Of a stretch of 64,000 nt of DNA, positions 27,998 to 62,400 are shown piece after piece. Every line of letters starts with the position of its first letter. The stretch's first letter is position 1. A program made the translations under genes and the position numbers. The DNA lies in the NCBI RefSeq assembly GCF_000003815.2, contig NC_049985.1, positions 15,113,507 through 15,177,506 on the forward strand. The letters run 5' to 3'. This stretch comes from Branchiostoma floridae (taxonomy: Eukaryota; Chordata; Leptocardii; Amphioxiformes; Branchiostomatidae). Under the pieces are notes generated by a model. It worked only from the letters and a program-made list of their open reading frames with translations. It did no database searches and had not been told where the DNA came from.

Positions 27998-30900
27998 TCA
28001 CCTCCGACGTTTCACGACTGCCAGGCCAACTATGCTTACAAGTAACGTCGCTGCTCCCAGTACGGCGAAGACTACAGTCAGGCCCGCGGTCCTCTCGCTA
28101 GCCCGGTCCTCTTCTACTGTTGCCCTCTCCACACCCTCGATGGGGGCTCCGATGATGTCCTCTATTTCACCTCTGTGTTCTTCCAGTACCTTGATGAGTG
28201 TTGATTGGTCCAGAAATAACCTGGTCTCGTTATCTGCAAAGAAAATGTCTGTATAAATGTTTTGCAACAGTAATCAACTGCAAACAAACTTTCAAAGTTC
28301 TCACAAACAAAATATAGTGTGATAATTTACTTTAAAAGTATGGAGCGAGTAATATCCAAGCAGATCTATCAGGCGGCAAAGACTATATTCTAAAATGGGC
28401 TAAACAGTATTCAATTAGCCATTGGGAGCGAAGTATTTTCTCCTTTGTTTGTTTGTCTTCGTCTGTATATTGTCCGTTTTCAGTTTCGTGGTCACCCAAG
28501 AATGATACATATTTTCATTAAATTCCTGCAGTCCAGTAGGAGAGAGTCTTTGTCTCAACCGCATAATTTACTTACCAAATCCTACGTCATCCGTATGGCG
28601 AATGCCAATTGGTGGGTCAAGAGATCTCGCGGGAAAATTCAAGTCTCGCCTTGCACGAGAGTTGGTCAGGGTCTCGTCGGCGCACATCTCGTTGTTCTCG
28701 CGAGGCGTGGCGAGAAGCATGACCTTCAGCAGAGGAGGGGTCACTTCTGGGTAGCCAGCTCCCACGTGGATGTCGTCCTCGGTGACAAATTCTAACTGAG
28801 CAGAACTGGGCGTCAAAACATGAAGAGATCCAGATTTAGAAAATAATGATAATAATTTCAACCTTGCCGATTTCCCTTGGGGCAATGCGACTACTAGAAC
28901 CTACTAGCGAATTTGAACTGTAGTGTTATCATTCACTACACAGACATAAAAAACTGCAAGACCAAAAATACAAGATATTCTTTTCACCAATACTTCGCTA
29001 AACTATACTGAAAAAAGAGAGTGCATAAATGATACCAAAGACAATGTAACGTATGGAATCTAGTCTTTTTTTATGTATTAGCTCCCAAGACCACAAATTG
29101 AAATGTTGCCAATTTTGTTTGACTATTGCAAGCTGCAATATACACTCCAAGATCATACTTTTAGGGATCATTTCTATAGTATGTGACCCGTGCATTCTCA
29201 CGGAAACGTGAACGCACGCAGGAGCCACGATGACGAGCGGTAGCGTTCCCTTCTGAGCGCGAAGCGGGTCGGGAGTGGTGCCCCTGGGGTACCGGGTTCC
29301 CGGCCATTGATGACCGTTCCTGTCCCTCTTACGGAGGGCCTGGAGGAAGGGCACGCATTCTGAGTGGTTTCATTATTTAATATCAAAGAAAACCTTAGGA
29401 AACCGACCGCCAGACTATGCGACGCCAATGCACAACAATTGCAAGGAAGTATCATTTAAAGTACTAGTCAATGATTGTTCAGATCTAGACAAAAACGACT
29501 ATGCGACGCCAATGTACTATAGCTATTGCAAGGAAAAAGCGTTATTCAAAGCACTGTTTAAGGATTGTTCAAAAGAAATTGCATGATCTATTACAGATGC
29601 TTCAATGGTATACCTAAATATAACACATAAAATTACTTATTCAGCATTACTTGACGCGAACCACGGAAATGTTAACTATATGAGGCATTACTAAGCTTCA
29701 TGACGACCAAATAGGCAGACAACGATCCAGAGGAGGTGTCCCAGAAGTAGAACGTACATGCGACATAGGCCGACTGACACTTCCGGCATGTCATCTCTCT
29801 TGGTCAATTTGTACCATTTTGCTGCTCAACTTTGGAGTCTGGCATTTCTAGAGAGTAGAGACTATGTTTTCGTCTTTTGGCTAGTCAGGGATAGTTTAAG
29901 AAAAGTCCTGTGTAGCTTACTAACGTTATCATAAAGACTCACGATTTCTTCTCCTGACCGTACGGACAGCACAGACTGAACCGGACGGTACAGTACTTGT
30001 TGATAACTCTGGAAACAGCCTTCTTCAAAAGTCTCTCTGCCTTGTGCCACTAAAAATATCATAATGGTTCCCGTGTTAACGCATAACAAGACTGTATCTT
30101 CAAACATGGTATGTGAAGTGCAATTTCTGCTGAACACAATAATCTTAAATATACCCACCCCAAAAGGTCATTATTAGAATGCTATGGACATAAGATGAAA
30201 CGTCTGGTCAAAATTGCTGATAAGATATACCTGAGACGCCGCCATGCGGATGTTGATGATAACGCCGAATTTGACCTCCGCTCTGCTTTCTGGAAGGTGC
30301 AAGAAGTGATGTTTTACAAAAGTGGGAACGAGGAAGGTGTTGTGTGCACAATTTGTACTACTCTCCAAGCAGAGGTTCAGCTCCGGATGTTTTAGGCATT
30401 TCAGAAAACGGTACAAAACAGAAAGCGCCCGATAAAAACACATAAAAAATGTAAGAAAACATCCTAAGCCACTGCTTGGAGAGTAGACTACATATTTTAA
30501 AAAAACGGTACAAGGTAGAGAAACCCCCAATAAAAACGCCGAAAAAAACTCATAAAACAACCGGGGTCGAACCTCTGTTTGGATAGTACAATATTATTGT
30601 ATAAGCGTGGTTTGGATATTGGATGTATGCTGAGTTAACTTACTTTGACACAGTGCTCCGTAGTAGTTATCCGTGCACTGACATCTGCAGATTTTCTTGA
30701 GAATTCCTCCATTTTGACAGATCATTCCAGCGCACGGTGGAGGGCGCGCCGTGGTTACCACAGGTCCAGACGTCGTCTGCCTGTTACTCACGGCACTTCC
30801 GCTAGATGTCGCTACTGCCTTGCTAACAGCACTCGTTGATGTAGCGGTTTCTATTGCTGATGTAGCGTCTATCTCGCCGTCGGGGGACGGTTTCGGCATG

Positions 30901-33900
30901 GCAGCCTTACAGGAAGCTGGGACATCTGTAAAACAGGGTGAAAGATCCAAAATATATTACCAAGTAGCCTACTTGAGGGAACAGTACTACTTCTTGATGG
31001 AACATTACTGAAGCATTATGCCAGTTATTCCTTTGTCAAAAGGTGCCTCGTAAGGGAACATAAGAACGTACAAGATAAAAATAGTTCTAGTGAGCACTGA
31101 CCTGATTAGAAGACTTACCTTTGAATTTAGTACAAAGTCTGCAGTTGGTGTCTTGCTCAGCATTTGCAAACTCTGTAAAAGTAAAGAACAATACTTGTGC
31201 ATGCAAGCAAAAAACAAACAAACACAAAGGCATGTAATTTTTTTAAATGATGGTAGATCGCCCGTACTTTCATGTTGGCTAATAACTGTTACAGCTCTCT
31301 CTATCTCTCCCTCTCTGTCTCTGTGTATGTTACCCTTTTTCGCTCTCTCGCTCTCTTTCTCTGTCTCTCCCTCTCCGTCTCTCTATATATCTACCTCTCT
31401 CTTTTTCGGCTTCTCTCTCTCTCTCTCTCTGTTATCTTCTCAATCATTAGTATAACTTTAATTAGTTTACAGGCCCTCCTGACCTTCCAACGTAAGGAAA
31501 TAGCGACAGTCTACTACTTACTGCACTTCCCACACATTTCCCTGCACCCCTCGATGACTGCCGCTAGGCGGCCACACACGGCGGGTCCATACCAGCCGGG
31601 ATTACAGTAACACAACTGGTGCTTGTTCTGGCATGGCGCTGGGGAGACAAGGATGAGTAAGTCGTAAAGCGTTTGATGGGTTTTAAAAGGGAAAGACGTA
31701 AAATATTTGCAGTACCTTCTATTTAAGCTTCAGAGAGTATCGTATGAGTCATCATCTGACGACAGCTGTATGCAACCTACTCGTGACACATAATTACACA
31801 ACAATATCAATGTATCAAAGTATGACACTTGCATATACGATTCTTAACAGCATCGATATATTAGCGATTCAAAATAATATCAGTTTTCTACCTACCTCCA
31901 CAGTTGGTACCGTCCCAACCATCTGGGCATGCGCAGGAGCAGTCGGTTTCGTTGAGAATCCCGCCATTCTGACACCGCAGTGCGCACTCTGTTGATGAAC
32001 AAGAATTCAAAGTTTGTGTAATTGAGCCCGGTTTTAAAGAGTTCACTCAAAGACAGAGACCCAGAGAGAGAAAGGCAGTAAATTTAGTTGGTATGACGTC
32101 ATAATGGAAGAGAAGAAGATACTCACCACAACCACTGTCTTCTGGTGCGCATGCGTCAACTAAGGAAGCGAAATAATAGAAAAATCGTGTCATTGCGTAA
32201 ATCTCAGAAGATAATATAACATTGGTGTCTACAAGCAGGTTATACGCTACACATCTATTTTGAAAATGTTTTACAACCTGTTATAACAACGCTCTATTTT
32301 TCACAGAAAAGTATGTTGAATTTAGCATTAGTGTCAGTATGTTCAAAGATTTACTTTCTTACAGCTTTCTTTTAACAGCGTTTTTGCCAGTTATCTACTC
32401 TCCATAGGCAAATGGCTCACCACATAGCCCGTCCTTACACCACCCCTTCTCTGACGCGCATGTCTGACAAGCTGATCCTGTGACGTATGGTCTCATGCCT
32501 GCATAGTTCCCCCTATAAAACACGATAAGACACAAGACACGTCATCATCGTCTTATCATAATATATACGGCCGAGGAAAGGTAGGTAAAAACCATGCATA
32601 TGGTAACAAAACTTCAGTAATGAGAAACAGAGATACCTATATTTGACGTTTAGCAGTTCACTGTGTGCAACGTGTGATACAGCCTTCAAGTAAAATTTAT
32701 AAATCAGCGATATTCCAAACGAATTCAAACGCACGGGCAAAGCTAAATGTAAACCACTGGAAAGAAAAATCAACTCTTCTTGTGTCCACGTCTAGCAAAG
32801 AAATAGATATAGAAAAACAACAACAAAGTCAACATACAAGAACAGTATGCATGATCTGTTCTACATAACATAACGGGTTACAAAAGAAGCCGCTAGGGGG
32901 CCAAAATCTCATCGTTTTCAGGCCGGTCTCATGATCATCAATACCTACCCACATACAAAATATCATATCAATACAATCCATTCAGGCGTTCTCGAGTTAT
33001 GCTGGTCTTCTACAAACACACAAACAAACGCTACCCAAACTATTACCTTCTTGCCGAAGGTAAAGATTAACTACTCACCCAGGTCCGTAGTTACACGTCA
33101 GTAGGTAGGCATTAGTAATGCTACTGCCTATAACAGTGGGGCAGAACGCCAAGCCACATCCAATCGCGTGCGACCTCCCCCACATCAGCTGTAAATAAGT
33201 AAACGAAAACAATAAACAGTGAGACGATGGCAGGGTAACGGTTATAGAATTTGAAAATAAAGGTGTGACATGATTGGCTATGAGCACCTGTGTGTAGTGG
33301 CCGCAAACCTTGTCATGCGCACAGGAGGCACTGTCGTAATTGTAGTATGACACCTCGTTGTACCAAGCCTGGAAAATATAGAAGAAAATACATATTGTTA
33401 TCACTTCCATTTTAATGAGACAAAACTACACTGTTGATGGTTTAGATACATTGTCAATTTTTTTATTCGTAGATCTTATTNNNNNNNNNNNNNNNNNNNN
33501 NNNNNNNNNNNNNNNNNNNNNNNNNNNNNNNNNNNNNNNNNNNNNNNNNNNNNNNNNNNNNNNNNNNNNNNNNNNNNNNNNNNNNNNNNNNNNNNNNNNN
33601 NNNNNNNNNNNNNNNNNNNNNNNNNNNNNNNNNNNNNNNNNNNNNNNNNNNNNNNNNNNNNNNNNNNNNNNNNNNNNNNNNNNNNNNNNNNNNNNNNNNN
33701 NNNNNNNNNNNNNNNNNNNNNNNNNNNNNNNNNNNNNNNNNNNNNNNNNNNNNNNNNNNNNNNNNNNNNNNNNNNNNNNNNNNNNNNNNNNNNNNNNNNN
33801 NNNNNNNNNNNNNNNNNNNNNNNNNNNNNNNNNNNNNNNNNNNNNNNNNNNNNNNNNNNNNNNNNNNNNNNNNNNNNNNNNNNNNNNNNNNNNNNNNNNN

Positions 33901-39864: not shown

Positions 39865-42800
39865 TCACGGAAAATCTAAATCGTCGTATGGAAAGCGTCC
39901 TGGGCCTCTGCCGAAGCCTCTGCCGAAGCCTCTGCCTTCATGTCGCCCCCTTTCGTGGCCTCGACCTCCGTGACCATTTTCACGACGTCGGCCCCAGGAA
40001 TGAAACTCCGGATCCTCTGTAGCTTCTTCTTCGAAACTGTCGTCCTCTTCCGAACTCTCCTCTTCCTCCGAACTCTCGTCCTCCTCCGAGCTCTCGTCTT
40101 CCTCCGAGCTCTCGTCCTCCTCTGAACTCTCTTCTTCCTCCGAACTCTCCTCCTCCTCCGAACTCTCCTCTTCCTCCGAACTCTCCTCTTCCTCCGAACT
40201 CTCGTAATCCTCCGAACTCTCGTCCTCCTCCGAGCTCTCGTCTTCCTCCGAGCTCTCCTCCTCCTCCGAACTCTCCTCTTCTTCCGAACTCTCCTCCTCC
40301 GAAGAACTCTCCTCTTCCTCCGAACTCTCCTCTTCCTCCGAACTCTCCTCTTCCTCCGAACTCTCCTCTTCCTCCGGCGTATCGTCGTCCTCCTCCTCTC
40401 GACTGACTTCAACTTCCTCCCCGTCTTGAGGAGTTTGTCCTTCCTCTCCGAGTTCTCCGAGACGCAGGGACAGAGCTAGAGGAGCAACCGGACCGAGCTC
40501 GGCACTCCCCGGGACAGGGATTGGCTGGAGGATCTGGTAGTCATGACGACGCTGCGCCAGAGGTGCCCGGATGTCGGCGGACCTGAGCAGAAATCGTGAT
40601 GAGCCGTCTGGAGGAAGCCTGCTGACCGAAGCGATGGGACGTGACGGTTGGCGAACCAGAGTGACGTCAGGGCGAATCTCCTCCACTGGGCGGATAAAGT
40701 CCACGTCTAGATCAGCTGGTTTACCTGGATTTAAGCAAATAAAAAATATAACGTAAGATTTGCAAAATAAAAACGATAGGCGAGGGCTACAAGCACAGAC
40801 GTTTATACATACATTCAATGTACAAGAAAAATAGTTTACCACACTAGCTACTAACAGTCCTAATGGAGTTTCATTGGAGAGGGGGTGGGGAATTCACTCT
40901 CCGTACGTACCCCAGGAAGGCCTGGTGGGGGCTAGAAAAACTACCAGAGCAGCTGCAAAACTTAACAAACAAATGATCCAACCGCTTATAACCGACACAA
41001 GTGCGTAGCTATAGGACACGAACGGTACCGAAAATTACCGAGGACGTACCGAATTTCGAGTGTAGAAACACGACGGCGTCGTCGATGACTCGGGACATGG
41101 CCCTGTAGCTGTCGGAGTAGAAGAGGTGCTCGGGAACCGGCTCGGAGACAATATCGTGTAGCTCCTGCTCGTTCACGGACGAGCCAACAGCGAAGGCGAA
41201 AATCTCACAGTCCGGACCTTAAAAGACCAAAAAGGCAGTATTAGTATAATTGTAAGATACACAGTCAAGATTTCTAAAACTTATATGTATGACACTGATT
41301 TTTTTTCTATTATAAGGACAGGGATGGTAAGCTCCTCTGGCAGGCTGAATAAAGTTTCTAAACTTGAACTATGCGGCTCCTGACTAGATGTCTTACTGAG
41401 AGATGACTGTGATGTGATGGATGTCGGTGAGCTAAGGAATGAGTCCACTCTGCTACATCTAGTAAGCTCCATTTTTCCTAATCTCCAACCAGATCCACGG
41501 TGCGTAATATATAGTATCAAACTTACCGGTGCCCTTAGCCGGCTATACTCCTTGGTCAGCTTTGTTACTATCTTATGGCACCGTAGGATCTGATTGGAGA
41601 TTACATTTTTCCCTTGGGAAAGGCATGCGCAATTCAAAACATCTACCAGTATTTCCCCGCTCGACTCTGGTGAAAATGAATAAGCCGGAGGTCCCTTATT
41701 TGAGAACACGTTAGAGATCCCTTGGAAGGCCGTGAATTAGGCTAATCAAACTGTACAGCCCGGTCTTACGTAGCTGGTATTTGCTGTACAAAACGGATGT
41801 GTTACACCCAATGTGATTTACTAGTTATACACAACAAACCGAGACCTCGCTGTACTCACCTTCGATAGAATCCTTGAGCGCGTCGGCAGCAGGTCTGGGG
41901 CTCCCTCCCACGTTAGACTTCCCGTCCGTGATGAGGAACAGGATCTTGGCGGCGGCAGGCCTGGACCCAGCCGTGCTCACAAACACGTCATCCTTGGCCA
42001 TGTTCAGGGCAACGGCAGTAGCCGTGGAACCACCTGTAGAATGAATGGAAGATTCTTTTGTTAGGAACTTTTAGCGCGGTCAAAATTGTCGTAGGCCGTC
42101 TCACGATTTTAATATCGCAGTATTTTCTAGCAGGCTGTTACAGAACCAAGCACTGACAAGTGATCTTAGTCTATGTCGTCACGTTGCTAGAATAATGGAT
42201 CTGAAATGCCCAGTTAACGGAAAGGCTGCATGAAAATGTACAGTAACCCCTTTACCATGTGTCTAATCGGCAGAAAGAAATAAACCCAAGCCAAAAATCT
42301 TGCAGAAGAACATTTCTTTAGAAGTATAATGATTAAAAAGAAGGTCGCAGGCTCGTGGTTGAGTCTACACATACATTGTGAGTTGATTAGAACATTTTAA
42401 CTGTTATCTCAATTAACATGTTAAGTTTCTTGTCGTTATACTGACTTTCGTAGGCGATATCCCCGATGGCAGACAGCACGGCAGCCCGGCTGGTGTGGGC
42501 GTTAAAGTCGAACTCCACTCGCGTCTTGCCCTCGTCTGAGAAGGACACCCCCGCCACTCGGGTGTTCGCTGGGTCGATCGGGGCCGGGAAGATTTCAAGC
42601 AGGCTCTGTAATGTAGCACCACGACAAAAATCAATATATATTCAGTACTTTATACAATAAGACAGATTGCGTTCCTCATATTGGAATCAAACAATAGCAA
42701 TCAAGTAAGGTATACTTCTCATTTCCAAACGTCCGGGCAACTTTCGGGAACGTAGCCTGGATACCAGACCCCAGGCCAATCTGATATTTTTAAGATCGGG

Positions 42801-45036
42801 CTGGGGTCTGGTATCCAGGCTTTCGGGAACAAAAAGTATGATATAAAAGACACCTACTACACAAGACGTAAATAGAATAGTCGTAGGCATTATCTGCGTA
42901 CATTTTCATATATACATTTCAATTTTTTCGTTTCCACAAACAGCCCGACCGGGCCCCGGTTTGGGAATGTGACGTAGGCCTAAATAGGACCTCTCTGGTA
43001 TCAGAGAACGGACTCCAATGTAATGCAAGATTTTTATTTTATCTTACAATTCCTCTTTCTCGAGTGAAGGGTTTCAATGGGTCTTCAAGAAAATGTGACA
43101 AGAGCAAATGTTTTGTATACCATGTCCTGTGCCGATTCACGCATTTATAAAACCGCCCTGACTACATAGATTTCGTACAGAAGGCAACTTTTTTTCTTCT
43201 GTCCAACTTTATTTTTCGCACACTTGCATCAGTTTTGCAGTGCCCACAGCATGTCGGGCATATAATGAAGTCGAAATACAGTATTGTTGACTATCCTGCA
43301 TCATCAACAATCAATGCAAAGGGACGCTACGTACCTGTACGTCTTCCTTTGCCCGGTCGAAGTTGCCCGGTCCGACGCTGCCACTTTTGTCGAAGACGAA
43401 GACCATGTCGATAACCATAGGCTCTTCATCGTCTGCTGCCTGGAACCCCCTGCGGCCGACCTTGTTCAGAAAACCTCTCGCCAAGGCGGTCAGAGTCTGT
43501 TCGCGTGTAGGAGTGCCACCTAGCGACATAAACACGAAAAGCAGCCGTCAGATACAACCCTATGGATTTGTTTGACAAAAACGCCTTTATGCTTCCAGAA
43601 TTAGCAGCTAGGGGGCTCAAGCTTATGTCACTTCTTCCCGAGTACACGAGCTAACAACTACTACCCAAAATCGCGACCATAGCGTATCAAGAACACGAGA
43701 TATTATACCCGGAAGTTCCACTGCACTACCAAGGGAAGCCACTGTGTGGTCCAAAATCATTTCCAGATTTTGTTACACCCTAACAAGGACATTATATAAT
43801 GTCCTTGACCCTACCAACATACCAAGTATGAAACTAATCCCTCCAGCCGTTCATAAGTTATCTTGTACACAGGCAGACAGACAAACGCAAGTGAAAATGT
43901 AACCTCCATGATTATTTCATGGAGGGAATAAGTCCCCACTTTACAAAAGGAAAGAAGAAAAGAAAGAAGGGCCACCGAATGAATGACCAAGATGGCCCTA
44001 ATAGTTACATCATTATAAGGTGACGTCACTCACATTGTTGTTTCTCCTCCCGGAGTGGCGGGCAGCACCTGTCATGTTCCAGCATATTCTGCACCACCTG
44101 CCGGGTCCGGTACACCGTGCTGCACCCAAATATGGACGTCTTTGGACTCCAACTACTCCACTCCGACACCTGCAGGTCAACCGCACATAAGCGACAACAC
44201 AACATGGACTTATTAAAACGTAATCTTGCGGATACGTGACGTCAGTAATTGGTCGAAAGGGCCATGAAGTTTATTTTAGAAAAAAGATATTGGTGGGCGT
44301 CATAGACAACACAACGTGTTTACGGCATACACTGTATAAAACAAACAAACAAACAAATTTTCCTTTACCAATGACGTTGAAAAGTTTTAGTTCAAAAACA
44401 ATAAAAGTATATTCAAACTGAATGAATAAGTGCAGGAAAGAATTGATACGCATACACGAATGAATGGACGAATGGACGGAAGGACGAAATAATGAACATG
44501 TCAATACGATGAACAGAAGAATGAAAGAACGAACAAATAGACGAATTGAAAGAAAGGGCGAGTAGAAACAGTCTCCTGGCTCTCGAGAATCGACCCCCCT
44601 CTCAGTTCACAACCCAGTGCCGCTAACCGCTGCGCCAAAAGTTCGGTTGCTGGCGCTTGAATCCCACTGTTACAGGATAAATGCATGACAAATTGCCTAC
44701 TCATAGCCTGATTAAATCTCGCTTATAGCAGCCCGCCAAACATTCGGAGGGGCCAGTTACAGCCCTGGACAGCGGAGTTTGTGTTACACAGACTAGCCTA
44801 CTCACCCTGCACAAGCTAGCGAGGAAGTCTGTACAGGAGCCGTGATCGACTGGAGGCCGGAGGATGGGTCCATCCGGGGGTATCCTCCTCGCCAGGGTAC
44901 TAGTATCCTCCAGCCCATGGTACAGGTTCAGGTAGCCCGAGGTCCGGGGACCCTGGGGCGGGGCAGGGCCCTGGGGTCTGGCGACCGAGGCTACCACCAG
45001 GGTAAGTGTCGCCAACACCACAGAAAGGCTAGGCAT
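39865..45036 (-). CDS. Secreted VWA protein with TSP1-like segment, acidic (E/D)ESSEE repeats and basic Gly/Arg tail (7 coding exons)
   Basis: Exons: 44806-45036, 44034-44169, 43335-43519, 42446-42605, 41860-42033, 41050-41217, 39865-40724. GT-AG introns and matching phases give 637 aa. Signal peptide 1-19 (VVLATLTLVVASVA), then a Pro-rich stretch and two Cys near 65-75. Residues 78-123 (VSEWSSWSPKTSIFGC, then CC and C) resemble a TSP1 repeat with some Cys missing. The VWA domain spans about 157-350 with a full MIDAS: DKSGS (166-170), T241 in SGSTAT, D274 in LITDGKS; so metal-dependent ligand binding is likely by family knowledge. Residues 453-592 are mostly (E/D)ESSEE hexapeptides; 593-637 are Gly/Arg/His-rich and end YDDLDFP. 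All repeat serines sit in S-x-E sites, the pattern used by the secretory kinase Fam20C. Probably extracellular matrix; the exact role is unknown. Confidence 0.88.
40039..40378 (-). repeat. Coding 18-bp minisatellite, (E/D)ESSEE repeats
   Basis: About 18 imperfect copies of an 18-bp unit encode E-E-E-E-S-S with occasional D, Y or an extra S. It lies in the last exon of the VWA gene. Codon variants (GAG/GAA, GAC/GAG) differ between units, so the array is not freshly expanded. Copy number may vary between alleles. Confidence 0.9.
42722..42985 (+). repeat. Second copy of the 3700-3893 repeat, split by a palindromic insertion
   Basis: Collinear with the repeat at 3700-3893 through ACACAAGACGTAAA, GAATAGTCGT and TTTCCACAAACAGCCCG, except for the 69-bp insertion at 42752-42820. 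It lies in the intron between coding exons 3 and 4 of the VWA gene. Confidence 0.75.
42742..42830. mobile_element. Tiny palindromic element (69 bp) with 10-bp target duplication
   Basis: TTTCGGGAAC occurs on both sides (42742-42751 and 42821-42830). The element has perfect 20-bp inverted ends, GCCTGGATACCAGACCCCAG and its complement, around a loop of about 27 bases. A longer diverged member is at 51867-51963. It is inserted into an older repeat, which gives their relative age. Confidence 0.85.
44562..44652 (-). repeat. tRNA-derived SINE-like fragment
   Basis: On the minus strand, GGCGCAGCGGTTAGCGGC resembles an A box and GGGTCGATTCTCG a B box. It ends GAGCCAGGAGAC like the unit at 38480-38549. 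It lies in the intron between coding exons 1 and 2 of the VWA gene. Confidence 0.5.
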
Positions 45037-45410
45037 GTTGATTCCTTTAGAAAGAGAGAAATAAGTTCGATTCATAATTATAAGATTTAACTTTGCAAAA
45101 TAGATCATGTACGGTAATGTAAAACTGTAATTATACACAATAAACACAAAAATTCATTTCGGACATTGGCAAAGTTTGAATTTAGGGAAAACACACATAT
45201 ATTTAGTAGGCTGCAACTTTTCAGACAACCAGTATTCTTCCATCTTGCCCCCATCGCAAGCTAGGCCCTTATGCATATGCATATGGAACAGTCCTCTGCA
45301 TATCTGATTTAGACAGGATAATACCCCAGTAAACTATACAATAAACTTTTCCAAATACGACATACATTTAGTTACTGCAAGAAAAGTAACAGTGAAATTG
45401 TTCAACTTAC

Positions 45411-45450
45411 TTCGTCGCAAACGTCCTCTGCGATAGAAAATCGAGGTTTG
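45411..45450 (-). other. Probable non-coding first exon of the VWA gene
   Basis: It lies about 30 nt downstream of the TATA box and ends at GACGAA/GTAAGTTG, a strong donor. The likely partner acceptor is CTTTCTAAAG/GAATC at 45045, eight bases before the start codon at 45036. The start of this exon is inferred from TATA spacing. Confidence 0.5.
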
Positions 45451-45473: not shown

Positions 45474-45481
45474 CTTTTATA
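45474..45481 (-). promoter_or_regulatory. TATA box of the VWA gene
   Basis: TATAAAAG on the minus strand within GGGGTATAAAAGAGCTC, correctly spaced upstream of a putative first exon with a consensus donor. A focused TATA promoter fits a tissue-restricted gene. Confidence 0.6.
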
Positions 45482-48697: not shown

Positions 48698-49093
48698 TTA
48701 GTCATTTCTCAAACGCAGTAAGAAACTTCTGAAGATGTCCCCAGCCACGCAGAGCAGGAAACCCCATAGCGGCAGGAAGGCCAGGTAGAACGGGATCCCC
48801 TGGAAATACTGTAGCTTTAGACACAACGCCATCTGGAATCCAAGCTTCAACATCATGACCAGCAAGTACCACAGTTTCTTCCTCATGGTGACGTCATCTG
48901 TGTCGTAGCCATTCCGACAATGTCTGATCATCCGAAGGGCCAGCATGGCGAGAATGATAGCGTCGAAGGCCCACAGGGGGACGAAGATGATGAACCAGTT
49001 CCAGCCGGTCCCCCCGTCCAGTCTCAGGACGAGCAGAATGAGGAAAAACAATGTCATGAGCCATGTAAACAGTACACGGTGAACCAGCGCCAT
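48698..49093 (-). CDS. TMEM60: TMEM60-like four-span membrane protein
   Basis: Single coding exon, 131 aa, close to the 133 aa of vertebrate TMEM60. The start MALVHRVLFTWLM aligns with the start of the family, and the ATG has a good context (AAAATGG). The open frame extends 24 codons upstream to another ATG, but that part does not look conserved. Four hydrophobic segments lie at about 6-25, 31-52, 73-93 and 100-122. Family hallmarks are visible: TWLMTLFFLILLVLRLD, WNWFIIFVPLWAFD, KLWYLLVMMLKL, and a late FLPLWGFL. The protein belongs to the TMEM185/TMEM60 superfamily and its molecular function is unknown. It faces away from the ornithine carrier gene. Confidence 0.9.
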   Translation of the reverse strand: MALVHRVLFTWLMTLFFLILLVLRLDGGTGWNWFIIFVPLWAFDAIILAMLALRMIRHCRNGYDTDDVTMRKKLWYLLVMMLKLGFQMALCLKLQYFQGIPFYLAFLPLWGFLLCVAGDIFRSFLLRLRND

Positions 49094-50850
49094 TTTGGAT
49101 CGACGAACGTTCGTCGGTGTTTTGTCCACTTGTATCACCAATATATCGCCACTTGTGCGTTCCAATCTAAGGTAGGTCCTCTTCTCTTTACGTCAGTATC
49201 CATTGTGGCACATTTAAGGTTGTTAGAACTTCCTTGGATGCTCGGAAAATAGGTGAGTGCATCTTTCCGTCAGTAGGAGCGACTCCATGTCTATCATCAT
49301 CATCATTTTTCTATGGACAAGTTCACTTTGTAGACGGGGGTGAAATTTTTTTACTATTATATTTCTGTTATTTTTACAAATTTTACTATTTCATCCTCAT
49401 TTAAAACACTTTATCTTATATATTATTACACTGCTATATTATTGACTTTGATATTAGATGTATTTCGTCTAAATTTAGACCCTTTCATTCTTCAATCACC
49501 CCTGTTTTGACGGTGATCTTTCCCCATGTTAGTACTTAGGCCATGTTGATTTCATTATATGGATGGCATCCACTGGGATCCCAAAACTAATGCGAGCGTG
49601 CGAAAAAAAACCTTTGGCAAAAAAGTTGCCTTCATTTAAGCGGTCATAAGGGTGGAACAAATGGTATAACAAAACAATAGATTCATACTATCACATCTTA
49701 CATTTTGGAAGGCTTCGCTCTCTACAAAAAGGAAAACTCGAACAACATTGTAAAGCGTATAGTCGGTATACTCAAGACTCTCCAGTCCTTTTCTGGTGTT
49801 GCCAACTGTTGGTCTATTTTTTTTGCAATATAGGGCACAAATTTACTCCATTTCATGGTCGAAAACTTTTTTTTTGAATGGATAAAACTTGTTGCGCACA
49901 CGAAACAAGTCAGGGTAGCTTAGTGGGGTATTGTGCGTTGATATTATTGTCTGTTAGTCACAAGATTAGTACCAGAAAATCGTATAATATATCATATATC
50001 ATCTTGGAGAGTTGGATGGTTACGGAACATGTGTCTATTAAACCAAGGACGTTAGTAAACCAAGGACGTTATACTAACGTCCTTGGTCTAACCAGTTTTT
50101 TTTTTTTTTCATCTCCAATGAACCATTCAATCCTTGTCTGGCTCATTGTCTGCAGGAGAAAGTCTGTCTCAATTTTGCCATTCACTCACTCGTTTTTTTT
50201 AGCTTCAAGATCGTGCGATTACTGTATGCCGCTTCCAAAATCCTTCTTCTCAGTAGCCTACCGTGAAATATTGGCTTGCTGTGTCCAACCCGTCCAATCC
50301 CGCCTGTGGTGACGCATTGCCAAGCAGTGCCTTTATTTCTTTTGTGAGTATTCTGGAAGTAACCTAAGGTTAACTGTTTAGCCATAGCCAAAACTATAGG
50401 GCTCGTATCATGGCCAATAGCGGTACCATATCAGTAACCAACTGAGTAAACACCGGAGCTTGATTGAGGGCTGGTTCGCGATTTTCAACATAGGGTAAGG
50501 TTGTGTGTGTGTGTACATGTGTTTTTTTTAAATGCTGGATAAGGGACTTTGTGACAAAACTCCCTTTCCTAGCAAAAAGAACATTAACCAGGGCGCGAAA
50601 TACTTATTTTTCTGCCTGCAGGTAACATTGAAAATTACCTGCAACACTCTTAATTCAGGAAGTATGGATCATACAAGAATTATTCAGCAACCATTGCTAT
50701 TTTTATTCTTTATAGGTGATAACACATGATGGTGGTAACGCAGCCATTTGATTTCATTCTCGCAGCCGTTTGAGTTAGAAATAACGTTAGACAAATCAGA
50801 CAACTCCGTTTAGCATCTGCTCGGAGACACCGGAGATGGAAAGACCGCAT
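49094..50850. other. Between TMEM60 and the carrier gene
   Basis: Holds the TMEM60 5' region, a GGATGGCATCC / ATGCGAGCGTGCG end of the TIR family seen at 14400 and 21490 (49560-49610), and a hairpin with CCAAGGACGTTA arms at 50040-50087. No exon was recognised. Confidence 0.45.
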
Positions 50851-56451: not shown

Positions 56452-59400
56452 ATGGAGAACGTGCCAGCAGCATTTCCAGCCACCAGCATCATGTGGCAGG
56501 GTTTCTCTGACTTCAGCGCAGGGGCCATGGGTAGGTTCTAGTCTGAACAATATCTGTCTTACAATAAGGGTGTAAAACCGGTGTTCTTCAACAGATCTTC
56601 TCAGTGTCACCGACAAAATGTAATGGAAGCTACTTAAAACTTCTGACTGTTTCCAAAATCATATCGAGTTTCTTGAGTAATTGCTATCTACCATGTCAAG
56701 TGTATTTTGGTGAAGTTTAAAATGGTTTGTGTCAACAGCAAAGGGATACTGGTAACCAAACATAGCACACACAAAGTTGGACAAAGCAATAAAAAAACAC
56801 CACGATAACCTGAAATATTGAATTTTAGTTTTAAAACATTGGGTGAATTGTCTAAAACTACATTCTGATAATCTAAAAAAAATGGATACTTTGTCAATTT
56901 TCCTTTTTACTTCCCAAAATCATGACCATATCTCCTCCTCCAATCCCACAGGTGGCACAGCATGTGTTTTTGCGGGCCAACCGCTGGACACAGTCAAGGT
57001 TAAACTACAGACATTCCCTACAATGTACCGTGGTGCTATAGACTGCTTGGTACAGACTGTAAAAGAGGAAAGACTTCCTGGTCTCTACTCGGGAACGGTA
57101 CCAGCGCTCGCCGCCAACATTGCAGAAAATGCCCTTTTGTTCGCCTTTTATGGACTTTGTCAAAAAGTGGTGCAGTACACCAGTGGTTTGGACAATGTCA
57201 ACAACCTGAGGTAAGTGTCTGATCCATCTGGTCAAAGTTTCCTCTTTCCATCGTACCACAGCCATTAAACACTACCAACCAAGTTTTTGGCATAACTTTG
57301 TCGTACATTGTCAGCGTGACACAGCGTAACAGTAACACATACTAGTATATAATTCGCAGATGTTGAAATAAGTGCAATTTCTTCTACGTTAATTGTTACT
57401 GTAGCTCATGTACACCATATGAAGTTAAAGTGCAGAATCAATTTTATATGTCTACATACATGTTGCAATATGTTTGCACAAGGGGTTTAACCCTCTTGAT
57501 TTGCACAGTGATGAAAGGTTTATTGGATTGACTCAAATGTTATAAGGACTGCAATTTCACTAGACAGAAATCCCGGAGGGACCATTTAGGCCCAATCTAG
57601 ACACAGTTTTTACCAATATCTGTGGAGATGTCGGGAGGTATCTGGATCGTTGGGGTCAGGACACCAGTGGTGCTTGCAGTCATAAACTTTTTTTTTTTTT
57701 TTTTAATTTTTTAAATTTTCAAACTTTATTAACATTTACATAACAATACATTCACATAACAATCAGATAACATTATAATACATAAAAGTAGTTGTGATCA
57801 GACTGTATCACCTTACAAGGCTATTTCTATACTATTATTTACCCTGTTCTTAAAATACGCAAAGTTTGGTTTCATGTTTTTCACATAACATAGGTATATA
57901 CAGTATTTCGCCAAGAGAATATAATATATAAGTGTGGCACTGGCAGTACGATGACAGCATACACCATACACAATCAAATTTTCATCCAGCACTATATCTT
58001 GGTTTTCGTAGCTCCTCCACCAAAGACAGAATTGCTTCCAAAAAATTTTAACCTCTTTGCAGTTCACAAATAAATGTACTATGGTATGTTTTTCCTTACA
58101 GTTATTGCATCGGTCGTTTTTTACTAGATTTGTTTTTTTTAACCAGCTGTTTGTAGGTAGGAAATGGTGAATTATCTTGTACTGAAAATATTGCAAATTG
58201 GTTTCTTTAGTGACAAAAAAGGCGGTAGTATAAACTTTCTCGATGTTGTCTTTGCCAATTTTACGTATGATTTCGTTTTCTCTAGTGGGTGGTACAACTT
58301 GTTTTTCTATAAGGGTATCGTATATCTGCTTACATGTTGTTGTGAGGGGATGGATTCTCTCCGTGTATTCAATGATATTTTTAGAGGCGCACTTTTTTCC
58401 ATTGTTTTTTATATTATCTTTCCAATTTTTTGGTATTGCCGCTTTTATAGAATTGTAATTCAATATTTGTCTTGAATTCATGGTCAAACCATATAAATTG
58501 TGTAGGTCTTTGTTTGTAAGAAAAGATCCATCCTCGTACAACAAATCATTCAGATAGATAATTCCGGCATCTATCCAGATTTTGTAATATATCGGTGCAT
58601 TCTTTACTAAAATAAATCTATTGTTCCACAAAACTTGCGAACATATTTGTCTGTGTGTTTTGGGTTCGTATCCCATCACTTCTTCCCATGCAACTAAAAC
58701 ATCTTTGTAAAATAGGGGCATGTCGTTAAGATCTAACTGAGAAGTAGCGTAATTGCATCGGAAAATCAAGAAACCTCCCCATCTTGCAAACAAGTACTCT
58801 TTTTCTTTTGATGGGTCCATTACAAATCTTTTAATCCATATGGCTTTTAAGGCCTTGTTCATTACATTAAAATCGATCATTTTAAGTCCACCTTGACATT
58901 TTTTGCCAATCAGAGTTTTCATTTTTACTTTTGGAGGTTTCTCTCGCCAGATATACTTGAATATGTATTCGTTTACTTGTTGTCATAAACAGTTATATAT
59001 ATATATCGTTTACTTGCAGTCATAAACAGTTATATAGCCTAATGAGCCTGCGTTAAATGCTAATGAGCCCTCCCGAAGTCGTGACGCATCTACATGCATG
59101 CGGAAGTTGTCGGGACCCCTGCTAAGCTATAGGGGACCCCTGCAAACTATCGATAGAATGCTCCGGACCTTTCGGGAGAAATTTTGCCGATATCTTAATG
59201 GCGATATTGTAGTTCCATCTAGACGCTGAAAAAAAGCTGTCTGCGAGAGGTTGTCGGCTCGCAGATATCGGGAAAAACTGTGTCTAGATTGTGCCTAAAA
59301 ATTGGATTTAATTTTAAGTGAGCCTTGATTTTATAACTGGAATAAGATTCACAATGTTAAAAGCTGGCTTAAAAGACAGCAAAACATGCAAAACATGGTG

Positions 59401-62400
59401 CTTAAGGTGTGATACATGTATTTGCAATATGTCAAGAATTGAAAAGTTGGTGATGAAGCTCTTATGTGTTGTTTGTTTGCAGTGCTCTACAGAGTGCTAC
59501 AGCAGGATCTATGGCAGCGTTCTTCTCATCCATTGGACTCTGTCCAACAGAGCTAGTCAAGTGTCGTCTGCAGGCCATCAAAGAGATGGCAGCTGAGGGG
59601 AGAGTGGCAACAGCAAACATGTAAGAATTGAACAGTGTGATATATGGGTGTGGGGAGGGGGGCATTGACTGGACAGTTGGGGGTTGAGTCTCATATAAGC
59701 TTCAAGTTCAAAATCTCCCCCACGTACTCAAACACACATAGACACATGTATAAACACACACACACACACACTCACAATAAGTCCAGACAAAATTATACCA
59801 TTTTAGAATGCCATCAACCTTTTGATAGTACATTGTATTGAAATTCATTGCTTCATTGCTCACAGTATACACTAGTATATGTAACATGTGTAGCTTATTT
59901 AGCACCAGTAACTGTTTAACATGTTAGACTAACACGCATGCGTATATTCAGTTTCAGTTTATTTATTTATCCAGGAAAATACATCGCCTTCTGGCGTTTT
60001 TCAATACCTCCTGGGAGGCCGGGAGACCCCAACATAAATTAACACAAAATCACAACAACTGAATCAAAATTGACATCAAAGGTCAAACTTAAATAACTAA
60101 ACGTCAGGTGTCAACTATTTACAATACAAATAACTCAGGATAACTTAATATAATAATGGTAATGATAATAACAATAATAACACATTCAGGCAGTGGATCA
60201 ACTTAAAATCAAAGTAACGAAAAGTGGAATTTGCATATCAATGTGTCGCTGGTCGGGCAGTGTTTGTTTCAAAGTTGATTTGCAAATGAAAAATAACAGA
60301 AGAGAACATAAATGTCAGTCTTAGCATCAAAACATAATACAGAAATCAAACAAAAGAATCCACTGTGATATGACAGGAACTAAAGTTAAAATATATACAT
60401 TCAGAATCCTTAGTCCTGGTCATACAATCGTTTAAACTGTGACAGTGTCCTCGCAGATCTTAATTGGGACGACAGGGAATTCCAGAGCACCGCCCCTGAG
60501 TATGAAAAAGCTTTCTTTCTATATTCAGATTTAGCTTTAGGCAGCAGGAGTCCACCTTGTGATCTAAGACGGGTATTATGTGTGTGTATTTCTGAGAGTT
60601 GGGAGAACAATGCAGTAAGATGGGGAGGGGTCATGCCGTTAAGTGCCTTGAAAACGAGCGTTGCCTTACTTCTTTTATGTACATCAACTATTTGGACCCA
60701 TCCAAGACTACGTAAGACATTTGATGTAGAAGTATGGCGATCGTACCCCATGATCACGCGACCAGCTCTAGTTTGGAGTTTCTGTAGTTTATCCAGACTT
60801 CCTTTACCCCCTTGATCCCAGACAGTGCTGCAATACTGTATGTGTGGGAGAAATAGGGCTTTGTAAATTGTGAGCAGCGCCTCTCTATCCAGGTAGTGTT
60901 TAAGGTACTTCATTATTCCGATTATTTGAGCTAGCTTCTTGTTAAGATGATCACAGTGATCATGCCACTTTAACATGTTGTCAATAATGACTCCAAGATA
61001 CTTGAATTTATCAACTTGGTCAAGAGTAGTGCCAGCTAAAGTAATATCTAATTCAGTGTTAATGTCGTTTGCTCTTGACGAACCCACTAACATCGTTTTA
61101 CATTTCGTGGGGTTTAACGACAATTTGTTAGCCGCAAACCACTGGGAAAGTCTGGCTGAGTCGCTCTGGATGGCCTGCTCAATTGCCTGTACATTGCGTG
61201 CCGCGAAGTAAATTATCGTATCGTCGGCATACAGTGCAATCTTACAGAGTTGCATGCAATTTGGTAAGTCATTCACATATATAATAAACAGAAGTGGGCC
61301 TAATATTGACCCTTGAGGGACTCCACAGGTTACGTGACGTAGGTTATATGACGTAGCAAGAGACGCCCAAGAGAGACCCTGCACAGATAAGACGTCTGTG
61401 CAGAGACCTGAAGAATAAACAGCTTGAAAGTGCATACTGGCCTGGTGTCATCCTGATGGATTCCTACCTAGAGGTAGAAGGACGGTCCGAGAACAGATAG
61501 GACGTGTCGCAGTATACACTTACTGTTTCATGCCAAACTTACTATTGACTTCCATTTGCTTCTACAAACTGCACAAGAAGACCACTTAGGGCACACATAA
61601 AATCTGGTCTATGTGGACAGGTGGTCATTATCTATGATTCTTTTAAGAATCATTTATCAACCACCTGTCCATTAAAATGGATTAAATGCATTAAAATGAT
61701 TGTGTCAATGGGGAAAACTATCTAAGAGACCACAAAAAAGTGGTCCTATTTTCCAGCTGGTCCTTATGTAGATGTGGTAACTAATACAGGTTTGACTGTG
61801 TTCTTTGCCCATCTATAGTGGACCATGGGGAATGACCAAACAGATCGTACGGCAGGAGGGATTCCGAGGCCTGTTCCAGGGGATGACCAGCACCTGGGCA
61901 CGAGAAATGCCCGGATATTTTTTCTTCTTCGGAGGCTACGAGCTGAGCAGAAAGCTGCTGACCCCTGCCGGCAAGACTAAGGATGATCTTGGTTAGCATG
62001 AATGTCATATATACAATGTATGTGCACTACTGTAACAGTGCTATACAAGAGTGCATTGTTTATTTATTTATCCATTAAGTTTCTCCAAATACAGTGGAAA
62101 GTATGGCAGAACAGGTGTTTCTTGTTAGCAAGGCTGCCATATTATTGGCTTAAAACCAACTATATATCAAATAATGCTAAGTATGTTGTACTAAACCACC
62201 TTGCTGGCTCATACCTTTAAGGATGCTGTGATGCAAAACATGTACAGAAAAATTCTGGTGCTTTTATACTGTATGCTGTAAATGCATTTACTTTTGTGGT
62301 GGTTTGATATCACAGTAGATCTAGAAGGTAAAAGGTTTTTTTTGCAATGTTTGAAGTTTACAGATGAAACTATCCTGTAATGCAGTAGAATCATAAATTA

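Follow-up and report, generated by a model that had tools for sequence, protein, structure and literature searches.

A stretch of 64,000 nucleotides of the lancelet Branchiostoma floridae genome (contig NC_049985.1, positions 15,113,507 to 15,177,506), to which we refer as the window, contains a minus-strand gene that is predicted to encode a secreted protein of 637 amino acids, in which a TSP1-like segment and a VWA domain with a complete metal ion-dependent adhesion site (MIDAS) are followed by a linker, a long Ser-Ser-acidic repeat and a Gly/Arg/His tail. A sister gene elsewhere in the same genome appears to possess the same head and to lack the repeat. We propose, with about an even chance of being right, that the window protein is a matrix-anchored polyanion that would be phosphorylated by Fam20C and, in a soft matrix or secretion free of mineral, would act as a polymer that buffers calcium and binds water. 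The general kind of molecule, a secreted modular protein in which a VWA domain is combined with a charged low-complexity tail, is known; the combination of parts and the sister pair are new.

Head, repeat and tail of the predicted protein

The gene runs from a start codon at 45036 to a stop codon at 39867-39865, exactly the span (39865..45036) given in an original prediction made for this DNA. Its seven coding exons form one unbroken reading frame with a single stop, all six introns are GT-AG, and exons 2-7 are entered in phases 0, 1, 0, 1, 1 and 1. The G+C content is 57-64% in the coding exons, 38-43% in the introns and 41% in the window as a whole. These in-frame exons of coding-like composition bear out the claim that the VWA domain and the repeat belong to one gene. 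This gene model was read from the DNA sequence alone, and the secretion signal was judged by eye: residues 1-19 form a signal-peptide-like hydrophobic run with likely cleavage after A19, and secretion, as originally claimed, is likely.

The VWA domain matches the Pfam profile PF00092 over residues 160-338 (E=1.1e-38), its 133.7 bits lying over the cut-off of 23.8. Its MIDAS had been described as intact, and indeed all five residues (5/5: D166, S168, S170, T241 and D274) were found by direct reading and by alignment to what we take to be the MIDAS-forming residues of the integrin alpha-M I domain. A complete MIDAS (DxSxS, T, D) does not define a VWA domain but is required for metal-dependent ligand binding. 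By sequence, the solved chains closest to this domain come from proteins of adhesion and of the matrix, namely mussel proximal thread matrix protein 1 (E=9e-24 across two VWA domains), integrin alpha-M and collagen VI. With respect to the TSP1-like segment of the original prediction, residues 76-125 do match PF19028 (TSP1_spondin; E=4.1e-5), but the score of 24.2 bits lies under the curated cut-off of 41, and the sole match in the PDB at E<=10 is F-spondin at E=0.21; because of these two scores we regard the segment as probably a divergent TSP1-like one and not as a certified TSP1 domain. TSP1 domains have a six-cysteine pattern and a WSxW start; the cysteines of this region are C68, 76, 93, 112, 113 and 123, and all six are present in the sister gene. 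No N-glycosylation sequon occurs in the 637 residues, and no strong hydrophobic segment follows the signal peptide, the best 19-residue mean being 1.3, within the VWA domain. A tandem VWA cluster within the window was considered and rejected, given that the first 460 residues yield eight matches there, of which seven are exons of the gene itself (E up to 2e-26) and the eighth, at E=1.9, is noise.

The linker (residues 349-456), used as a 117-residue query against the lancelet's own genome, found no significant place other than its own (E=2.2e-69); the only further match had E=9.8. It leads into an acidic block (residues 457-592) with 87 acidic residues and a single basic one, amounting to a charge of -86; from residue 461 to 592 there is no Lys, Arg or His at all. 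Tandem Repeats Finder reports an 18-bp unit in 18.2 copies at 89% matches (40049-40376), and at the protein level 19 SS/SF starts can be counted over residues 473-581, one of them irregularly spaced and the last one decayed, in agreement with the approximately 18 S-x-E-rich (E/D)ESSEE units of the original prediction. Both serines are retained in 18/19 units. Glu occupies the +2 position for 36/38 serines in residues 469-592, compared with 4/43 before this segment and 0/1 after it, and the acidic block as a whole holds 37 S-x-E serines. The Ser/Asp/Glu content of the best 40-residue stretch reaches 100% in the array, versus 47.5% for the best stretch elsewhere in the window's six frames, which puts the array far outside what chance would produce. 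The tail (residues 593-637) comprises 13 Gly, 10 Lys/Arg, 6 Asp/Glu and 4 His for a net charge of +4; it is thus Gly-rich and basic, as claimed, although less basic than had been suggested. A 12-bp exact tandem repeat of 2.8 copies (39904-39936) lies inside its coding region.

That no named family shows this order of parts holds within Pfam and the open-licence literature, where we found no paper describing a signal peptide, TSP1-like segment, VWA domain, Ser/Glu repeat and Gly/Arg tail in succession; a literature search with the letters of the repeat likewise gave no match.

A sister gene with the head and no repeat

The genome (G000; 513 Mb in 431 contigs) was searched with the 297-residue TSP1-VWA head, 132/177 candidates being scored; at least 91 matches had E values of 1e-6 or less, and five of these are the window gene's own exons. 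Another five fall at a single other locus (C8:12.5836-12.5862 Mb), where they pair with individual exons at 52-68% identity. The remainder, 27-39% identical, match the VWA domain, and many of them cluster on C2, C12, C16 and C192. E. coli genomes gave no match.

The sister gene read at the C8 locus (Table 1) has 171/280 aligned residues (61%) identical to the window protein over residues 68-352 of the latter. It has a signal-peptide-like start, a VWA domain with the MIDAS motif (Pfam E=4.6e-42) and a TSP1_spondin match (1.6e-5; 25.5 bits) that is also below the cut-off; C299 is absent. The G+C content is 48-64% in its exons and 40-41% in its introns. The last exon reads GSSFSTSDDEYDYDYGFFRR, with the first Gly derived from a split codon, and then a stop, so that the protein ends in a 20-residue acidic, Ser/Asp/Tyr-rich tail, with no linker, repeat or Gly/Arg tail. 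Near the sister gene (L029) we found no tandem repeat and, in 19.8 kb, no 40-residue stretch exceeding 40% Ser/Asp/Glu, the best stretch being the sister's own tail. Thus, as the two genes are read here, the linker, repeat and basic tail are what separates them, and the repeat belongs to one copy as a module and lies outside the shared core. Given that the sister tail is short yet Ser/Asp-rich, the long repeat may represent the growth of a small acidic tail, a tentative direction of change between the sisters.

Searched against the same genome, the repeat and tail together retrieved themselves and 24 other places (best E=6e-8; 150/1188 candidates scored). Within this scope, borrowing of the repeat or the linker from another gene was rejected after four of the 24 matches were read (L038, L039, L040 and L042), these being compositional or unrelated by eye and including one Lys/Glu/Ser-rich and one transposase-like frame. 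The first of them (L038, C9:22226927-22227310) is a 638-residue open frame with Lys/Glu/Ser-rich repeats, related in composition and different in unit from the Ser-Ser-acidic array. As a separate observation, the VWA matches at C2:13018476-13086962, C12:14821764-14905766 and C16:12156957-12213446 often cover a near-whole domain in one open frame, some with identical scores, which suggests recent tandem duplication at these clusters.

Predicted function and rival readings

We infer that, once secreted into what we presume to be a soft matrix, the protein would dock through its TSP1-like and VWA head onto an extracellular ligand via a metal ion held at the MIDAS, our best guess for the ligand being collagen or another matrix protein. 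A Golgi kinase of the Fam20C type, whose motif is S-x-E/pS, would phosphorylate many of the 37 S-x-E serines, shifting the charge of the acidic block from -86 up to about -160 (the value computed for phosphorylation of every such serine), and the resulting extended phospho-brush would bind calcium, magnesium and water.

With respect to the kinase, a Fam20C profile produced seven exon matches in the genome, at two loci, and one exon of each locus was compared with the PDB. The piece on C13 is closest to human FAM20C (1.3e-20, versus 2.3e-5 for glycosaminoglycan xylosylkinase), and the piece on C8 to Fam20B, the xylosylkinase (7.7e-17, versus 2.8e-9 for FAM20C). By these matches the genome carries one Fam20C-like and one Fam20B-like locus, so that the proposed kinase would be available in the same genome. 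This agrees with PMC5865150, according to which Branchiostoma has both Fam20B and Fam20C, and tunicates appear to have lost Fam20C. Other papers describe action of Fam20C on caseins (PMC7948968) and on MEPE (PMC7422707), and state that FAM20C differs from the common acidophilic kinases, CK2 among them, in favouring an acidic residue at +2 (PMC12650399).

Variation among the repeat units, counted over 17 in-register units, those at 492 (irregular) and 581 (decayed) having been excluded beforehand, appears to favour upkeep of charge and serine. Third codon positions account for 23/24 base differences from the unit consensus; 14 differences are silent, against 5.8 expected when the same base changes are placed randomly (P=5e-5); and 8/9 residue-changing codons replace Glu by Asp with the charge kept. 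Of these eight replacements, seven affect unit position 5 or 6 and leave untouched the Glu at +2 from either serine; a single event, copied along the array, probably accounts for several of them.

Several observations weigh against the proposal. The sister gene manages without the repeat, and the head therefore does not need it. An acidic residue at +3, as preferred by CK2-like kinases, fits 37/38 serines in residues 469-592, and since both motif types fit, the motif alone cannot name the kinase. The P value is optimistic because tandem copies share ancestry and are not independent. Furthermore, the opposite-strand frame (SSSSEL) has 23/24 differences silent; third-position bias alone thus cannot choose the coding strand, and we discarded it as proof of strand. 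A further plus-strand frame across the array is, like the gene frame, stop-free, with 0 or 1 silent differences. The minus strand was chosen because the repeat frame is continuous with the VWA exons and because the SSSSEL frame is interrupted by a stop at 40205, whereas the gene frame is uninterrupted.

The rival readings considered below overlap with one another, and their probabilities do not sum to one. The best of them, which is unlikely in our estimation, is that the acidic block is an un- or sparsely phosphorylated hydrated spacer that works through the charge of Glu and Asp, with the serines as filler that aids solubility. The charge of -86 is already present without any phosphate; however, the spacer reading would not lead one to expect that both serines are kept in all but one of the units, that nearly all serines lie in S-x-E, or that a Fam20C-like locus exists. 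Somewhat less probable still is drift: a purine-rich minisatellite would have expanded within the final exon of one sister, giving a disordered tail that is tolerated and has no role of its own. Such an origin is consistent with the 18-bp array at 89% matches, the exact 12-bp repeat in the tail and the absence of an array from the sister, whereas the third-position-biased, charge-preserving unit differences speak against it; this is not decisive, given the non-independence of the copies and the similar behaviour of the opposite frame.

A mineralisation inhibitor or calcium phosphate-sequestering protein, comparable to casein or to the phosphorylated peptide of the acidic serine- and aspartate-rich motif (ASARM) of MEPE, has a low probability in our view. 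The Ser clusters with acidic residues are common to the window protein, the SIBLING/MEPE ASARM and caseins, a likeness of composition, and the SSEE units presumably resemble casein-type phosphate centres, which we count in favour of this reading. ASARM peptides are moreover reported to inhibit mineralisation, in connection with their phosphorylation, in PMC7422707; the VWA head, on the other hand, suggests fixation in a matrix over a soluble chelator.

It is slightly less probable again that the protein is a coacervating adhesive or granule protein, the acidic repeat and basic tail phase-separating with themselves or with a partner. One chain does hold both acidic and basic low-complexity blocks, but their charges stand at a ratio of approximately 20 to 1 (-86 to +4), so that any condensation would need a basic partner or divalent ions. 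The opposite-charge self-association envisaged in the original prediction is accordingly weak, and strong self-association finds no support, because a tail of +4 cannot balance a block of -86, or of -160 with all S-x-E serines phosphorylated.

Improbable to a similar degree, and a little more so, is a role in a mineral matrix like that of molluscan Pif or the vertebrate SIBLINGs, in which the repeat would bind or nucleate mineral. In PMC11291548, Pif/BMSP of the mollusc shell matrix is like the window protein in having a signal peptide and a VWA domain, and Pif also in its charged low-complexity C-terminal region, a layout that favours this reading; points of difference in the same source are that Pif binds calcium carbonate crystals and carries chitin-binding and partial laminin G domains. 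A Pfam search of the window protein to E=0.1 returned neither a chitin-binding nor a laminin G domain, and amphioxus has cartilaginous skeletons only, according to PMC7719703. For mineral binding only resemblance speaks, and calcium buffering, gel formation or mineralisation inhibition would fit at least as well. Least probable is an error of the gene model whereby exon 7 would be part of a different gene, as this exon has an in-phase acceptor, 860 open nucleotides and coding-like G+C content, and the last exon of the sister gene, itself a sequence reading, is likewise entered in phase 1 right after a matching Phe-Gly.

SIBLING/SCPP proteins are small disordered proteins of a vertebrate gene cluster that are not known to have a folded adhesion domain, and neither MEPE nor the caseins are known to carry a VWA head, whereas the window protein has a VWA domain. 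The TRAP/MIC2 adhesins of apicomplexans combine VWA and TSP1 in the reverse order, with a membrane anchor consisting of a transmembrane segment and a cytoplasmic tail; a MIC2 chain (4okr) is among the PDB matches of the VWA domain (E=5.6e-10), but the window protein has, after its signal peptide, no strong hydrophobic segment that could serve as such an anchor. With the best PDB match, the mussel byssus proximal thread matrix protein 1 (4cn8), it shares the VWA domain, of which the matched chain, to which this comparison applies, has two.

Coordinates, surroundings and wider meaning

The features of the two genes are collected in Table 1. The TATA-like box, donor and acceptor ahead of the ATG suggest a non-coding first exon, as far as such short signals can indicate one. 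No AATAAA was found within approximately 1 kb downstream of the stop codon.

Table 1. Features of the window gene (window coordinates) and location of its sister gene
Feature	Coordinates	Strand	Remarks
Possible TATA box TATAAAAG	45474..45481	-	Called from position only; octamer occurs 7 times in the window, on both strands
Possible 5' untranslated region exon donor GAA/GTAAGT (slash, splice point)	45405..45413	-	Putative
Matching acceptor TTTCTAAAG	45053-45045	-	Putative; immediately before the start codon
Coding exon 1	44806..45036	-	Start codon, signal peptide (residues 1-19), Pro-rich N-terminal stretch, C68, C76
Coding exon 2	44034..44169	-	TSP1-like segment (residues 76-125, spilling into exons 1 and 3)
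Coding exon 3	43335..43519	-	VWA start, MIDAS DKSGS (D166, S168, S170)
Coding exon 4	42446..42605	-	VWA
Coding exon 5	41860..42033	-	VWA, MIDAS T241 and D274
Coding exon 6	41050..41217	-	VWA end
Coding exon 7 (860 nt)	39865..40724	-	Linker, Ser/Glu repeat, Gly/Arg/His tail, stop; phase 1 entry
Ser-Ser-acidic repeat, residues 469-586	40021..40374	-	19 SS/SF starts, mostly 6-residue steps; coordinates derived from the exon table
Gly/Arg/His tail, residues 593-637	39868..40002	-	
Possible polyadenylation signal ATTAAA	39379..39384	-	Putative; about 480 bases past the stop
Sister gene	G000:C8:12586974-12583265	minus	7 coding exons, phases identical to the window gene; 326 residues

One intron of the window gene holds an inverted repeat (42754-42821) with 29-bp arms that are 93% complementary and a 10-bp spacer, which looks like a small palindromic mobile element. 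A probable neighbouring minus-strand gene (38001-27998) was recognised by eye in the lists of open reading frames from CAP-like exons at 37.7-38.0 and 33.1-33.4 kb, EGF-like exons at 31.9, 31.5 and 30.7 kb and a hydrophobic segment near 28.0 kb; Pfam gave no match for its first exon, and EGF_2 at 30594-30956 scored below the cut-off only. Within this probable gene sits a full-length U3 small nucleolar RNA on the plus strand (29149-29368; 158 bits versus a gathering score of 34). The window further contains minus-strand retroelement pieces at 57813-58982 and 60410-61447 (zf-RVT and RVT_1), and pieces of a TMEM185-like gene (48698-49192, minus strand) and of a mitochondrial carrier gene (56822-57214, plus strand).

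Returning to the predicted phospho-acidic module, we tentatively suggest, as a possibility we rank well below an even chance, that a casein-like phosphoserine polymer served by Fam20C exists on one of two sister VWA proteins, in a chordate without a mineral skeleton, and is independent of the vertebrate secretory phosphoproteins. If this is true, anchored phospho-polyanions, in the form of calcium-bridged gels or mineralisation inhibitors, arose in a soft chordate matrix with no mineral to serve. If the repeat is phosphorylated, the two sisters would constitute a natural with/without pair for the role of a phospho-acidic module where mineral is absent. Moreover, a strong candidate substrate of Fam20C in the lancelet would inform the role of this kinase before bones and teeth.

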